A stretch of 64,000 bases of DNA, from assembly GCF_001182045.1 (NCBI RefSeq), contig NZ_CVTY01000007.1:186001-250000 (forward strand), read 5' to 3'. Of the stretch, positions 21,942 through 52,355 are shown in pieces. Source of the stretch: Dakarella massiliensis (GTDB lineage Bacteria; Pseudomonadota; Gammaproteobacteria; Burkholderiales; Burkholderiaceae_F). The position numbers and the translations under genes were made by a program. Position 1 is the first letter of the stretch. Every line of letters starts with the position of its first letter. The notes under the pieces are model-generated. The model searched no databases. It was not told the origin of the DNA and was given only the letters and a program-made list of their open reading frames with translations.

Positions 21942-21965
21942 ATCCATTCAGTTGATCCACAGCGG

Positions 21966-21992
21966 ATGCCCGGCAATGTCCGGGCATTTTTA
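21966..21992 (+). terminator. Rho-independent terminator after the LysE gene
   Basis: An 8-bp stem ATGCCCGG / CCGGGCAT (21966-21973 with 21980-21987) is followed by TTTTATT. Confidence 0.88.
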
Positions 21993-22213: not shown

Positions 22214-23020
22214 ATGAAACGCCGCATTCTTCTCGCTGCTATCGCAGCCACTCCCGCAATCGCGCTCTTCGGCTGCAGCAAGAACGATTCATCCTCTGCT
22301 CAGAAGACGATCAAGCTTGGAACACTGTCCGGACCTCACGCTGAAGTCGCTGAAGAAGCCAAAAAGGTCGCTGCCAAAAAGGGACTGAATGTTCAGATTA
22401 TCGAATTCTCCGATTATGGTCAGGTGAATGAAGCGCTCGCCGCTAAGGATATTGACTGCAACGCGTTTCAGCACGTTCCCTTCCTTGAGAAGGCCAAGGC
22501 CTCCAAGGGATATCAATTCACTGCGCTTGGGAAAACCGTTCTCTTCCCGCTCGGCGTTTATTCCCAGAAAATCCATACCAAAACTGAAATTGCTGACGGA
22601 ATGCTCGTTTCCGTTCCCGCCGATCCCGCGAACCTCGGCCGCGGTCTTCAGCTCCTTGAACGTAACGGCATTATCAAGCTGAAGGATGGCGTCGGGATAC
22701 ACGCGACAACACACGATATCGCTGAGAATCCGAAACACCTGGTATTCCGCGAGGTTGACAGCGCTTACCTCGGCCGGTCACTTCCCGATGTGGGATTCGC
22801 GGTCATCAACGGCAGCTGGGCGGTGAAATCCAAGCTTTCCCCTGAGAAAGACGCATTTATTCTCGAAGGTGCGGATTCAGACTTTGCCAACGTTCTCGTC
22901 ACCCGCACTGAGGATAAAGATAAGCCTGAGTTCAAAACTCTCCTTGCTTCGTTCCAAAGTCCCGAAGTGAAGCAATTTGTGAAGGATAAGTTCAAGGGCT
23001 CGGTGGTAGCCGCCTTCTAA
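22214..23020 (+). CDS. MetQ/NlpA-family substrate-binding lipoprotein without linked ABC transporter
   Basis: A 268-residue lipoprotein: basic N-terminus, hydrophobic stretch, lipobox LFGC with Cys21. The mature part is a full NlpA-family binding protein (IKLGTLSGPHAEVAEE, then DIDCNAFQHVPFLE near 78-91 and VSVPADPANLGRGLQLLE near 136-153), the fold of the methionine-binding protein MetQ. No MetN ATPase or MetI permease gene is nearby. It begins a tight four-gene operon with an iron-sulfur protein, a Cys-rich unknown and an isocitrate-lyase-family enzyme, so it may bind a carboxylate or thio-compound linked to that pathway rather than methionine. This is inference. AGGGAC lies 10 bases before the ATG. 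Confidence 0.9.
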   Translation: MKRRILLAAIAATPAIALFGCSKNDSSSAQKTIKLGTLSGPHAEVAEEAKKVAAKKGLNVQIIEFSDYGQVNEALAAKDIDCNAFQHVPFLEKAKASKGYQFTALGKTVLFPLGVYSQKIHTKTEIADGMLVSVPADPANLGRGLQLLERNGIIKLKDGVGIHATTHDIAENPKHLVFREVDSAYLGRSLPDVGFAVINGSWAVKSKLSPEKDAFILEGADSDFANVLVTRTEDKDKPEFKTLLASFQSPEVKQFVKDKFKGSVVAAF

Positions 23021-23041
23021 TCCGTTTCACAAGGGAAGAAA

Positions 23042-23776
23042 ATGCATATCAATCAGCAATGTATCGGATGCCGCCAATGCTGGCCGGTGTGTCCGGTCGG
23101 CGCTATTGGCGCTACGGCTGACGGGCACCATTCAGAGGTCAATCTGGACCGCTGTGTCGAATGCAGTGCCTGTCTCCGTTCCAGGGTCTGTCCCGTCAAC
23201 GCTTTTGAACCTCAGGAACTGCCGTGGCCCCGCAGCCTGCGCTCGGCTTTCTCTGATGTCCTGAGTCCTCATAAATCAACCGGAGTTCTTGGCCGCGGAA
23301 CCGAAGAAATGAAAACCAACGACGTTACGGGCCGGCTGCGTGCCGGGTTCGTCAACGTCGCGGTGGAACTCGGGCGTCCCGGAATCAGCGCAAGTTTCGA
23401 AGATGTTCAGAAGGTCACCAGAGCCCTAGCCCGCCTTGACGTTGAGTTTCAGAAAGAAAATCCGGTTACCTCTCTCTTCACAAGCGACCGAAATGGGGAT
23501 CTGAATCCTGAGGTACTGGGGGAGCGGGTACTCTCCGCACTCGTTAAATTTGAGATTCCCGTCAGCCGGGTTCCTGAACTGGTAGAGGCTCTTGAAGAGG
23601 CGGGGAAGACTGTTGATACCGTTTTTTCCGCCGCTCTCGCCGAACCGATCCGTCCGGGGGAATCGGAGCCGGAACTTATCCAGATTCTGGAAGAGAACGG
23701 CATTTTTTATCGTCCCAACGGAAAAACCAATGTCGGACTTGGCAGACCGTTTCTTCCAGTGGAGGCGGCATCATGA
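23042..23776 (+). CDS. Two-[4Fe-4S] ferredoxin-domain protein with unknown C-terminal domain
   Basis: A 244-residue cytosolic protein. The N-terminal 60 residues are a bacterial-type ferredoxin with two cluster motifs: CIGCRQCWPVCP at about 8-19 and CVECSACLRSRVCP at about 38-51, the second with a one-residue insertion before the last Cys. The remaining 180 residues are helical, contain no Cys and match nothing I recognise. Electron transfer to or from the partner at 23773-24402 is likely, since its stop overlaps that gene's start by four bases (ATGA). AGGGAAG precedes its own ATG. Confidence 0.85.
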   Translation: MHINQQCIGCRQCWPVCPVGAIGATADGHHSEVNLDRCVECSACLRSRVCPVNAFEPQELPWPRSLRSAFSDVLSPHKSTGVLGRGTEEMKTNDVTGRLRAGFVNVAVELGRPGISASFEDVQKVTRALARLDVEFQKENPVTSLFTSDRNGDLNPEVLGERVLSALVKFEIPVSRVPELVEALEEAGKTVDTVFSAALAEPIRPGESEPELIQILEENGIFYRPNGKTNVGLGRPFLPVEAAS

Positions 23777-24402
23777 CGCATACTCTTCATCGGCGCGGTT
23801 CAAAGTCGGATCTTGCGCATGACTATGTGGTTCTCGCAATGGCAGCCCGGGGTGTCAAACGTGACGGTGCCGCACCGAAACTCGCCCAGGCGCTTGAAAT
23901 TTTTGCTGCTCATAATCCAGTGAATTACGGAAACGTGGCCGGAAATTCCTTCACACGGACTCTGCCCGAGATGGTCTCTCTTACGCGTGACAACACAGTC
24001 TCTCACGCCGTATTCAGGGATATTGAGGATGTCACGGCAGTACTCCAGGATCTGAAAAAAGAAGATCTCGGTATTTCCATCGTGGTTTCAGGGCTATTTG
24101 ATCAGGTCAAGGCCTCCTGTCGATGCGCTGGGCTGACTCCTCACACGGCCAATGTGTCGCTTGGGATCTTTGGCAAAACCGACAAGCTGCCAAAAGAAGG
24201 CGTTCTCGAAATTGCCTCCATGTGCGGACACAACATGGTCTCATTCGGTGTCATCAAAAAACTCGTACGGGATATAGAGGACGGTTTTACGACACCGGAA
24301 CAGGCGGCTAAAAAAATTGCGGCGAGCTGTCTCTGCGGCGTCTTTAACTGGGAGCGCGCAGCTCAGGTCTTTTCCCGTCTTGCTGAAGGAGCACAGGCAT
24401 GA
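23773..24402 (+). CDS. Cys-rich protein of unknown function, partner of the ferredoxin protein
   Basis: A 209-residue soluble protein that I do not recognise. It has five cysteines in its second half, as C-x-C at 116/118, Cys151 in SMCGHN and C-x-C at 186/188 (SCLCGVF). This C-x-C...C...C-x-C pattern looks like ligands for an iron-sulfur cluster or another metal. The first half is helical and has a conserved-looking RTLPEM segment. Its start overlaps the stop of the ferredoxin gene and its stop overlaps the start of the lyase gene (both ATGA), so the three are translationally coupled. It may be the catalytic or scaffold subunit of a redox enzyme with the ferredoxin protein; this is context only. 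Confidence 0.8.
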   Translation: MTHTLHRRGSKSDLAHDYVVLAMAARGVKRDGAAPKLAQALEIFAAHNPVNYGNVAGNSFTRTLPEMVSLTRDNTVSHAVFRDIEDVTAVLQDLKKEDLGISIVVSGLFDQVKASCRCAGLTPHTANVSLGIFGKTDKLPKEGVLEIASMCGHNMVSFGVIKKLVRDIEDGFTTPEQAAKKIAASCLCGVFNWERAAQVFSRLAEGAQA

Positions 24403-25301
24403 AAACCGCTGAAGAGAAACGTCTCGAGTTCAGAAGAAATCTTGAGACGGGAACATTCATGATTGCGCCGGGAATCTATGACGCGCTGTCTGCGAAAATT
24501 GCCGAAGCATCCGGACTTAATTGTCTCGCAATGGGCGGTTATGCCATCTCCGCCACCCGTCTGGGTCAGCCGGATGTCGGACTGCTTTCGCTTACCGAGA
24601 TGCGGGAATCGCTGAAGCAGATCTGTGATGCGACTGAAATTCCTGTGATTGGAGATGGGGATACCGGCTTCGGCAACGCTCTGAATGTCATCCGGACTGA
24701 AAATGAGTATGAGCGGGCCGGCGCTTCCTGCATCTTCTTTGAGGATCAGAAATGGCCCAAGCGCTGCGGTCATATGGAAGGGAAACAGGTTATTCCAGCC
24801 GAAATCCATGTTCAAAAGATCCGCGCGGCGTGTGATGCCAGGATTGATAAGAACACGGTCATCATGGCCCGAACTGATACCCGGGCAATCAATGGGGTCG
24901 ATGATGCCATCCGGCGGGGGCATCTTTACGCAGATGCCGGCGCTGAAATCCTTTTTATCGAGGCGCTTCGGGACCGGAGTGAAGTTGAACGGCTGGCCCG
25001 CGAATTCGAGGGAACCGGCACTTATCTCTTCGCAAACATGATTGAGGGCGGAAAAACGCCGATTATTCCAGCCTCTGAGCTGAAGGAAATGGGATACGCG
25101 GGGGTTTTCTGGTCCTGCGCTTCCCTTTATCTGGTTGCTAAGACCCTAAAAGACGCTTTTACTGAACTGGCACGTGACGGAACCAGTGACGCGTTTCTCA
25201 GCAGAATGATTGACTTCAACGAATTCAATCACTTCATTGGTCTTGATCGCTATCGTGAGCTGGAAAAACGATATGCGGCGGATGATAATTCCCAGCCCTG
25301 A
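24399..25301 (+). CDS. Isocitrate lyase/PEP mutase superfamily lyase
   Basis: A 300-residue TIM-barrel enzyme of the superfamily that includes 2-methylisocitrate lyase, 2,3-dimethylmalate lyase and phosphonopyruvate-forming enzymes. Visible signatures are PGIYDALSAKIAE (about 25-37), the metal-site motif GDGDTGFGN near 86-94, and KRCGHMEGK near 125-133. The Cys in KRCGH is the catalytic base of the C-C lyases and is absent from the mutases, so a lyase that cleaves a 2-hydroxy dicarboxylate (methylisocitrate, dimethylmalate or similar) is favoured. Its start overlaps the preceding stop, and AAGGAG lies 11 bases before the ATG. It is the last gene of the 22214-25301 operon. No prpC or prpD gene is nearby. 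Confidence 0.88.
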   Translation: MKTAEEKRLEFRRNLETGTFMIAPGIYDALSAKIAEASGLNCLAMGGYAISATRLGQPDVGLLSLTEMRESLKQICDATEIPVIGDGDTGFGNALNVIRTENEYERAGASCIFFEDQKWPKRCGHMEGKQVIPAEIHVQKIRAACDARIDKNTVIMARTDTRAINGVDDAIRRGHLYADAGAEILFIEALRDRSEVERLAREFEGTGTYLFANMIEGGKTPIIPASELKEMGYAGVFWSCASLYLVAKTLKDAFTELARDGTSDAFLSRMIDFNEFNHFIGLDRYRELEKRYAADDNSQP

Positions 25302-25320
25302 TGGAATCTTTCTGAAAATA

Positions 25321-25354
25321 ATGCCCGAAGGTCGAAACAGATCTTCGGGCATTT
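25321..25354. terminator. Terminator between converging genes
   Basis: A 10-bp stem ATGCCCGAAG / CTTCGGGCAT (25321-25330 with 25343-25352) has a 12-base loop. It lies between the lyase gene and the converging ureohydrolase gene. The T-run is short. Confidence 0.75.
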
Positions 25355-25376: not shown

Positions 25377-26267
25377 TCACTTCAGAATCGGAAGGCTTTC
25401 CATCATGCGTTTCAGATTCCAGGCATCCCACGGCATATGTTCCGCAATACCGAGGCCTACGAGGTCCGCCGTCTTCCCAATATCAAGAATCAGACGGGTG
25501 ACCTGTTCAATCTTCAGTTTCCCGGGGGCGGTGTCAAACGGAATGCCGTTCGGATCATTCGGGAACTGAGAGTAGAAGAACCGGGGATCAAGCGAGTCAA
25601 TGTCGAAATGGATGGCGACGTGCTTGAGGCCGCTTGCCTTAAGCCAGTCCGTCACCGCGGTGCTCGTCTCAAACACCGTTTCCGGCGGGAACACTTTCAT
25701 GCCGAGACGCTCAACAATCGCGCTTTCCTTCGGAGAATTGAAGCGGCTCGGCCCCACAATGGCAACCTGCCCACCTGTCAGCGGTTTCTTCACTTCACGG
25801 GCGAAAACCGGATCACCGTCCCCCATCAGATTTCCGAGAACCATCGCGTGTTCCCGGTCAAAGACTTCAGGCGTGGAAATATCCGGATGCGCGTCTACCC
25901 AGATAACCGCGAGGTCCCCATCGTACTTTTCATTGAGGTACGAGAACGGGGCCTGATCCACGAGGCAGTCACCGCCGAAAACAACAATACGATCCGGTGC
26001 CTCACGGTCAATGATTTCCCGGGCCGCATGAAGCTGCTTCAGCACCACCTCCTGCTGATAGACACCATTCGTCTTCCAGCCGTGTTTCCCTTCATAGGGA
26101 GCCACGGGAACCTCAAACTCGGGCGTGGTTTTGCTCTTCGGAGCAAGGAAGGAAAGGAGCCGGGCTCCCAGAGGGTAGATCTCGCCAGTCACTGGCGGCA
26201 GGTCATAATCGCCTCCCTGCCACTGAGGCATCAGGAGTCGGATTGTTTTCTTATTTTCTTCAGCCAT
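25377..26267 (-). CDS. Arginase/agmatinase superfamily protein with His-to-Cys change in the metal site
   Basis: A 296-residue protein of the ureohydrolase fold. Metal-binding motifs are DAHPD (Asp125, His127, Asp129) and FDIDSLDP (Asp222, Asp224). The first motif, normally GGDH, reads GGDC with Cys101 in place of the metal-binding His, and the motif near the C-terminus is GLGIAEHMPW. The family hydrolyses guanidino groups (arginine, agmatine, formiminoglutamate), releasing urea or formamide. The changed ligand suggests altered metal use or a different substrate. The start is supported by AGGAAATCAG upstream. It is a single-gene unit, convergent to the lyase operon. Confidence 0.85.
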   Translation of the reverse strand: MAEENKKTIRLLMPQWQGGDYDLPPVTGEIYPLGARLLSFLAPKSKTTPEFEVPVAPYEGKHGWKTNGVYQQEVVLKQLHAAREIIDREAPDRIVVFGGDCLVDQAPFSYLNEKYDGDLAVIWVDAHPDISTPEVFDREHAMVLGNLMGDGDPVFAREVKKPLTGGQVAIVGPSRFNSPKESAIVERLGMKVFPPETVFETSTAVTDWLKASGLKHVAIHFDIDSLDPRFFYSQFPNDPNGIPFDTAPGKLKIEQVTRLILDIGKTADLVGLGIAEHMPWDAWNLKRMMESLPILK

Positions 26268-51539: not shown

Positions 51540-52355
51540 ATGCTGAATCGCCGTTCCCTCTTCGCAGCCCTTGCCGCTGCCGCTCTTTCGACTCCGTTCT
51601 TTGCCTCCGGCGCCCTCGCCGCCTCCTCCACCCCCGTGATCCGTGTCGGCATCAACCCGGGCGGACAGGCCGAGATTATGGAAGTCGTGAAGAAGAACGC
51701 CGAGAAGCTCGGTCTCCAGATCAAGGTGTTCGAGTTCAGCGATTACATCGCTCCGAATGTGGCGCTCGACACAGGTGACATCGATATCAACAGCTTCCAG
51801 CATCAGCCCTACCTTGACCGTCAGATCAAGGATCGTCACTACAAGATTGAGAGCGTCGCGAAGACCATTATTTCGCCTCTCGTCTTCTTCTCGAATAAGG
51901 GCTACAAGAGCTTCAAGGACATTCCGAACGGCTCCAAGATCGCCATTCCGAATGACGCCACGAACGAAGGCCGCGCGCTTCTGATCCTTCAGAACGCGGG
52001 CTACATCAAGCTCCGCCCGGGTTCCGGTCTCCAGGCGACGCCGCTTGATATCACTTCGAACCCGAAGAAGCTGAAGTTTGTCGAAATTGAGGCGCCGCAG
52101 CTTCCCCGCGCGCTGCCTGATGTGGCGGCTGCCGCCGTGAACGGCACCTATGCCCGCCCGGCCGGTCTCTCGATCGCGAAGCAGGGTGTTCTCGTTGAGA
52201 GCGCCAAGGGTTCCGCCTATGCCAATGTTCTCGTCGTCCGTACGGCTGACAAAAATAAGCCCTGGGTGAAGACCTCCATCAAGGCCTATCACCAGCCGAA
52301 CGTGAAGGCGTTCATCGAAAAACGGTTCGGGGATTCCACCTTCCCGGCCTGGTAA
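51540..52355 (+). CDS. MetQ/NlpA-like periplasmic binding protein, not lipidated
   Basis: A 271-residue protein. The N-terminal signal (1-27, ending ALA-A) has no lipobox Cys, so the protein should be free in the periplasm, unlike most NlpA-family members. The mature part keeps the family core: VIRVGINPGGQAEIME, DIDINSFQHQPYLDRQ near 80-95, and IAIPNDATNEGRALLILQ near 132-149. No ABC ATPase or permease gene is adjacent, so it is the second orphan binding protein of this family in the window. GGAG lies 8 bases before the ATG, and a terminator follows. Confidence 0.88.
   Translation: MLNRRSLFAALAAAALSTPFFASGALAASSTPVIRVGINPGGQAEIMEVVKKNAEKLGLQIKVFEFSDYIAPNVALDTGDIDINSFQHQPYLDRQIKDRHYKIESVAKTIISPLVFFSNKGYKSFKDIPNGSKIAIPNDATNEGRALLILQNAGYIKLRPGSGLQATPLDITSNPKKLKFVEIEAPQLPRALPDVAAAAVNGTYARPAGLSIAKQGVLVESAKGSAYANVLVVRTADKNKPWVKTSIKAYHQPNVKAFIEKRFGDSTFPAW

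Follow-up and report, generated by a model that had tools for sequence, protein, structure and literature searches.

The operon at positions 22214-25301 of a 64,000-nucleotide stretch of Dakarella massiliensis DNA (here called the window; contig NZ_CVTY01000007.1, positions 186,001 to 250,000) has as its core a two-gene module, encoding a ferredoxin protein extended by a further domain (the Fd protein, 23042-23776, + strand) and a cysteine-containing protein (the Cys protein, 23773-24402, + strand). In the window, the pair is preceded by the gene for a MetQ/NlpA-family substrate-binding lipoprotein (22214-23020, + strand) and followed by that for a lyase of the isocitrate lyase (ICL)/phosphoenolpyruvate (PEP) mutase superfamily (24399-25301, + strand), but the four genes are not one fixed unit. 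As far as the libraries and the literature that we searched show, the Fd-Cys pair is undescribed, and nothing was found in the literature on the pair itself. We propose, with a probability of about 0.42, that the two proteins make up a metalloenzyme of two components whose substrate is an imported acid or amino acid, and that C-C cleavage follows in the present organism. This reading is based on the near-obligate pairing of the two genes and their linkage to uptake genes, as well as on the cluster motifs of their products and an invariant site that is a candidate for metal binding.

We searched for the Cys protein in 300 genomes of the class and 398 genomes of the phylum of a Veillonellaceae metagenome-assembled genome, as well as in 61 genomes of the window's family and 398 genomes of the phylum to which the window belongs. 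Around the Veillonellaceae genome, it was encoded by 21 of the 300 and 27 of the 398 genomes; it was found in 4/61 genomes of the window's family and, among the 398 of its phylum, in the window genome only. The Fd gene lay immediately 5' of the Cys gene, on the same strand, for 76 of the 79 Cys genes collected, the exceptions being one locus where the two are adjacent after correction of the start (L059) and two loci holding tandem or truncated copies (L119 and L120). A reverse search of the same 300 class-level genomes with the C-terminal domain of Fd gave 20 positives, all within the 21 Cys-bearing genomes, and none in the 279 others. The Cys-bearing genome devoid of Fd (G311; locus L033) has, at the place expected for Fd, a gene for an IS110-type transposase that immediately precedes Cys. 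Many anaerobic bacteria harbor more than one copy of the pair; it is often multi-copy in Bacillota, with up to nine copies in one genome (G528), and rare in Pseudomonadota. Viral contigs and plasmids contained no relatives. This rarity, together with the placement of the window in the Cys tree, suggests a transfer whose direction we infer to be from Bacillota to Pseudomonadota.

Both 4Fe-4S motifs of the Fd protein are confined to residues 1 to 56 (Fer4 matches span residues 6 to 54) and comprise the eight conserved cysteines of a 2x[4Fe-4S] ferredoxin domain (C7, C10, C13, C17, C38, C41, C44, and C50), all invariant in 32 homologues. The C-terminal domain, of about 185 residues, displays conserved GRGTEExKTN and KxNxGLG motifs and had been called novel in the preliminary description. 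In line with this, it gave zero Pfam matches with eight homologues searched, nothing above chance in NCBIfam, and no usable PDB-sequence match by profile. The idea that this domain and the Cys protein are distant copies of each other was rejected (hhalign probability, 0.4%).

The Cys protein (about 209 residues) had likewise been described as tied to no family, and indeed no match was obtained in Pfam, NCBIfam, or PDB sequences, profiles included; this also holds for Fe-S (iron-sulfur) hydro-lyase families of the aconitase, fumarase, or serine dehydratase type. Counting residue conservation in 75 non-identical homologues, we found C151, H153, C186, and C188 to be invariant (75/75), as were R7, G53, G134, P140, M150, G152, and N192, with H3, H6, and H124 being nearly so. 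C151-G152-H153 form part of an MCGH motif (codons at 24223-24231, + strand), and C186 and C188 form a C-x-C (24328-24336, + strand). C116 was kept in 58/75 homologues, and C118 was not conserved. The C-x-C...C...C-x-C pattern first reported for this protein is thus present in the window (C116, C118, C151, C186, and C188), but across the family only its last three cysteines are invariant and the first C-x-C is not conserved, so that the conserved pattern reduces to C-x-H...C-x-C. Judging from the sequence, the three invariant cysteines would fit an Fe-S cluster with an open iron, and the Cys3His set would equally fit zinc.

Structures were predicted from an input of only three to four sequences (the window, L003, L004, and L005). 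The AlphaFold 2 model of the Cys protein reached a predicted local distance difference test (pLDDT) score of 67.8, with a ferredoxin-like alpha/beta first part and the conserved cysteines in less certain parts, and the model of Fd was poor (pLDDT 52.3). Comparison of the first half of the Cys model (pLDDT 68) with PII/ACT-like ferredoxin folds gave a best Z of 7.2, against a noise mark of 8. Foldseek searches with the predicted models returned nothing under an E value of 0.001, and VIA-align returned nothing above noise, only common-fold background. A likeness of the window Cys protein to a tautomerase (6vvr; E 0.0065) was gone once a profile was used, and methanogenesis marker 8 matched weakly in one family member only (E 0.0099, 15 bits, 65 residues). 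The idea of a selenoprotein was also discarded, the in-frame TGA codons being terminal stops or wrong-strand reads.

The genomic context of the pair was assessed by comparing 68 pair loci with 40 random 15-kb regions of eight of the same genomes; family identity was checked with Pfam for ten seeds, and other neighboring gene names were read by eye. TctA was found near the pair in 35/68 loci, versus 1/40 random regions (p 2e-8, a value which, like all those of this comparison, is optimistic because the seed proteins were themselves drawn from target loci, some of which are near-copies), and TctC in 34/68 versus 1/40, a contrast that is still large despite this optimism. Genes for CooF-like proteins (18/68 versus 1/40), mini-CooS (13/68 versus 0/40), pyridine-nucleotide-disulfide (FAD/NAD) reductases (13/68 versus 0/40), zinc-dependent alcohol dehydrogenases (12/68 versus 1/40), MetQ (11/68 versus 0/40), and ICL-superfamily lyases (7/68 versus 0/40) also lay near the pair, while PrpR-type sigma-54 regulators showed no enrichment (13/68 versus 5/40).

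These neighbors vary by clade, being TctABC transporters in some, mini-CooS, CooF, and reductase in others, and here a MetQ-type lipoprotein and an ICL-superfamily lyase. The Cys subfamilies track this context, with 16 label changes in the tree compared to 31.6 when shuffled. In one clade (SH-like approximate likelihood ratio test, 95), the window groups with the other Sutterellaceae and with two loci of Bacillota (L005 and L044); this is the only clade where MetQ and lyase jointly accompany the pair, and L044 harbors all four genes, with a lyase 73% identical to that of the window. The co-conservation of gene order that the preliminary description had proposed to look for was therefore borne out for the Fd-Cys pair but not for the four-gene set. 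What stood was its broader view of an undescribed, co-conserved set of Fe-S and cysteine proteins in an anaerobe, with uptake functions next to it and, in the clade of the window, a C-C lyase as well.

Other combinations were seen elsewhere. A mini-CooS (Prismane/CODH family), CooF-like, NAD(P)H reductase, and Fd-Cys cluster recurred at ten loci (L055, L058, L060, L061, L069, L047, L048, L050, L107, and L112), five of which have a MetQ lipoprotein and one of which (L112) has TctABC; Fd-Cys and mini-CooS may be partners in function. In Bacillota, another ICL/PEP mutase-family lyase (L115:3168-3986) and aconitase-family genes (L113, L115, and L066) lie beside Fd-Cys and TctABC, which independently ties the pair to C-C lyase chemistry. 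Genes for PanB (ketopantoate hydroxymethyltransferase) occur in TctABC/Fd-Cys operons at L056, L057, and L114, apart from any pantothenate operon seen, and possibly indicate a different substrate.

The lipoprotein, which bears a lipobox (...LFGC), matched PF03180 with 274.7 bits (cut-off, 27) and TIGR00363 with 241.3 bits (cut-off, 228.9) but missed the MetQ subfamily and NlpA equivalog scores (NF008285, 242.6 versus 374; NF007364, 205.2 versus 487). Ligand-site residues of NmMetQ were taken from PMC6739813 and matched through alignment to Escherichia coli MetQ, in which N229 corresponds to NmMetQ N238. R143, N199, N226, Y68, F85, and H87 of the window protein match NmMetQ R156, N213, N238, Y81, F98, and H100, respectively, and Y103 is replaced by F90. 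The Arg/Asn/Asn set that binds alpha-amino acids is thus retained in this alignment, and a 2-hydroxy-dicarboxylate, the ligand suggested at the outset, is not favored. No permease or ATPase gene adjoins the lipoprotein gene, consistent with its first designation as an orphan. The sole metIN-like pair of the genome lies on another contig (C5:316502, L180) without an adjacent MetQ, and the genome encodes nine MetQ paralogues; several orphan MetQs therefore probably feed the single MetNI importer. Given this ratio and the retained amino-acid-binding residues, an uptake role is likely for the window lipoprotein. A second orphan MetQ-family protein (about 40% identical) is encoded in the window at 51540-52355, between universal-stress-protein-like genes. 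Of the paralogues, which were viewed at loci L189 to L193, some have as a neighbor a gene that by eye resembles MalY/PatB or a nucleoside phosphorylase.

The lyase belongs to the PF13714/PF00463 family (PF13714, 141 bits) and contains DGDTG and, as noted before, the KRCGH form of the K(K/R)CGH motif. Its nearest solved relative by sequence is the petal death protein (1zlp; 42% identity over 279 residues). It scored under the equivalog cut-offs for PrpB (TIGR02317, 260.8 versus 354.4), carboxyphosphonoenolpyruvate phosphonomutase (TIGR02319, 216.9 versus 420), and PEP mutase.

The four open reading frames are arranged as initially described, the last three overlapping by ATGA (23773-23776 and 24399-24402, both + strand), and a gap of 21 bases separates the lipoprotein gene from Fd. 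A hairpin followed by a T run at the end of the upstream LysE-type gene (21964-21989, + strand) forms the upstream border, and a second hairpin lies 3' of the lyase gene (25320-25353, + strand; -24.1 kcal/mol, z -4.9). The latter is a probable terminator, although it got no terminator score in a pattern scan. Since these hairpins flank it, 22214-25301 constitutes a compact operon; no riboswitch was found upstream by Rfam. A convergent gene (25377-26267, - strand) encodes an arginase/ureohydrolase-family protein that scored under the arginase and agmatinase cut-offs. The host assembly (2.48 Mb) is that of a Sutterellaceae-type gut bacterium, whose nearest named relative is Mesosutterella multiformis (Cys protein, 97%).

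In the mechanism that we propose, Fd would hold two [4Fe-4S] clusters through which electrons would pass, and the Cys protein would bear a metal site formed by C151, C186, C188, and possibly H153, the simplest candidate being a site-differentiated Fe-S cluster with the three cysteines as ligands. Together, they would convert a small carboxylic or amino acid delivered by the co-encoded uptake system. In the version found in the window, the MetQ-type lipoprotein would capture an alpha-amino-acid-like compound and pass it to the single MetNI of the genome, the pair would transform the imported compound, and the ICL-superfamily lyase would then split the resulting carbon skeleton. The pair would probably start the breakdown of the imported compound. 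Several points weigh against this proposal. Our searches returned no functionally known homologue and no fold match, and the models are of low confidence. The Cys3 and His set could equally be a zinc site, and the partner enzymes differ by context, a variation that a role in maturation or regulation could explain as well. The amino acid signature of MetQ and the lyase family, which acts on 2-hydroxy or 2-oxo diacids, point to no single obvious substrate. Finally, the Bacillota locus L005 has MetQ-Fd-Cys without an adjoining lyase.

The varying partners are what keeps a different role plausible, in which the pair would mature or redox-activate the particular enzyme or transporter encoded in each operon, or act as its redox sensor, since TctABC, mini-CooS clusters, zinc-dependent alcohol dehydrogenase, PanB, PdxA, and the ICL-superfamily lyase are unrelated to one another. 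We nevertheless regard this role as unlikely: the commonest shared neighbors are uptake systems rather than a single metalloenzyme class, the Cys clades track context as expected of substrate-specific enzymes, and neither an ATPase nor a regulator-like domain is present. Somewhat less probable still is that the Cys site is structural zinc, for which Cys3His is a common ligand set, and that the pair forms a complex without catalytic activity that carries electrons for a neighboring oxidoreductase, as in the mini-CooS clusters. Genes for CooF-like proteins, mini-CooS, and NAD(P)H reductases, which adjoin 13 to 18 of the 68 copies, would suit such a carrier, but most copies, including that of the window, have no such oxidoreductase adjoining.

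Fe-S hydro-lyases have open-site clusters, which the three invariant cysteines resemble. A scheme in which a 2-hydroxy-dicarboxylate is imported by the lipoprotein, undergoes a redox or Fe-S dehydratase-like step, and is then cleaved by the lyase would accordingly draw on this resemblance, on the superfamily and catalytic motif of the lyase, and on the presence of carboxylate transporters and dehydrogenases in the vicinity of other copies of the pair. Its odds appear about as low as those of the zinc site, as a 2x[4Fe-4S] partner would be superfluous for a simple hydro-lyase and the amino acid signature of the lipoprotein speaks against its simplest form. The least credible of these alternatives is a sulfur-transfer or methionine-linked system akin to the HcyBio (DUF39) and NIL/ferredoxin homocysteine route (PMC5764234). 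It would account for the occurrence, next to MetQ, of a conserved-cysteine protein paired with a conserved ferredoxin protein that bears an extra domain, but no NIL domain was found in Fd (eight homologues), none of 32 Cys homologues matched HcyBio/DUF39, and most copies of the pair have TctABC and no MetQ.

If the pair is an enzyme, as our metalloenzyme proposal holds, current annotation lacks a whole set of routes by which anaerobes of gut and sediment degrade organic acids or amino acids, and the pairing of paralogues with transporters would offer a direct route to their substrates. There is a real chance that Fd-Cys is a new enzyme class. A more far-reaching and tentative idea, which we would not bet on, is that of a new class of two-component Fe-S enzymes, duplicated by anaerobes (up to nine copies per genome), coupled to different importers so as to initiate the degradation of many carboxylic or amino acids, and constituting the missing partner in mini-CooS clusters.

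Compared to known systems, the window lipoprotein resembles MetNIQ in matching PF03180 and TIGR00363, in keeping Arg/Asn/Asn, and in having MetNI elsewhere in the genome, but it lies apart from MetNI, is one of nine, and falls under the MetQ and NlpA subfamily cut-offs. The HcyBio and NIL/ferredoxin pair likewise combines a ferredoxin protein bearing an extra domain with a conserved-cysteine protein, the window pair lacking both the NIL and the HcyBio domains. Mini-CooS clusters (clade G, Ni-CODH-like) are known from Thermosinus-type bacteria; other Fd-Cys copies sit in clusters with mini-CooS, CooF, and NAD(P)H reductase, several of them with MetQ, while the window operon has no mini-CooS. 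With the ICL/PEP mutase superfamily, which includes the petal death protein (a 2-alkylmalate/oxaloacetate lyase), 2,3-dimethylmalate lyase, and PrpB, the window lyase shares the fold family, DGDTG, and KRCGH, but it scores under the equivalog cut-offs and shares its operon with Fd-Cys. An operon composed of a binding protein, enzymes, and a superfamily lyase is of an ordinary type, and the novelty lies in the pair within it.

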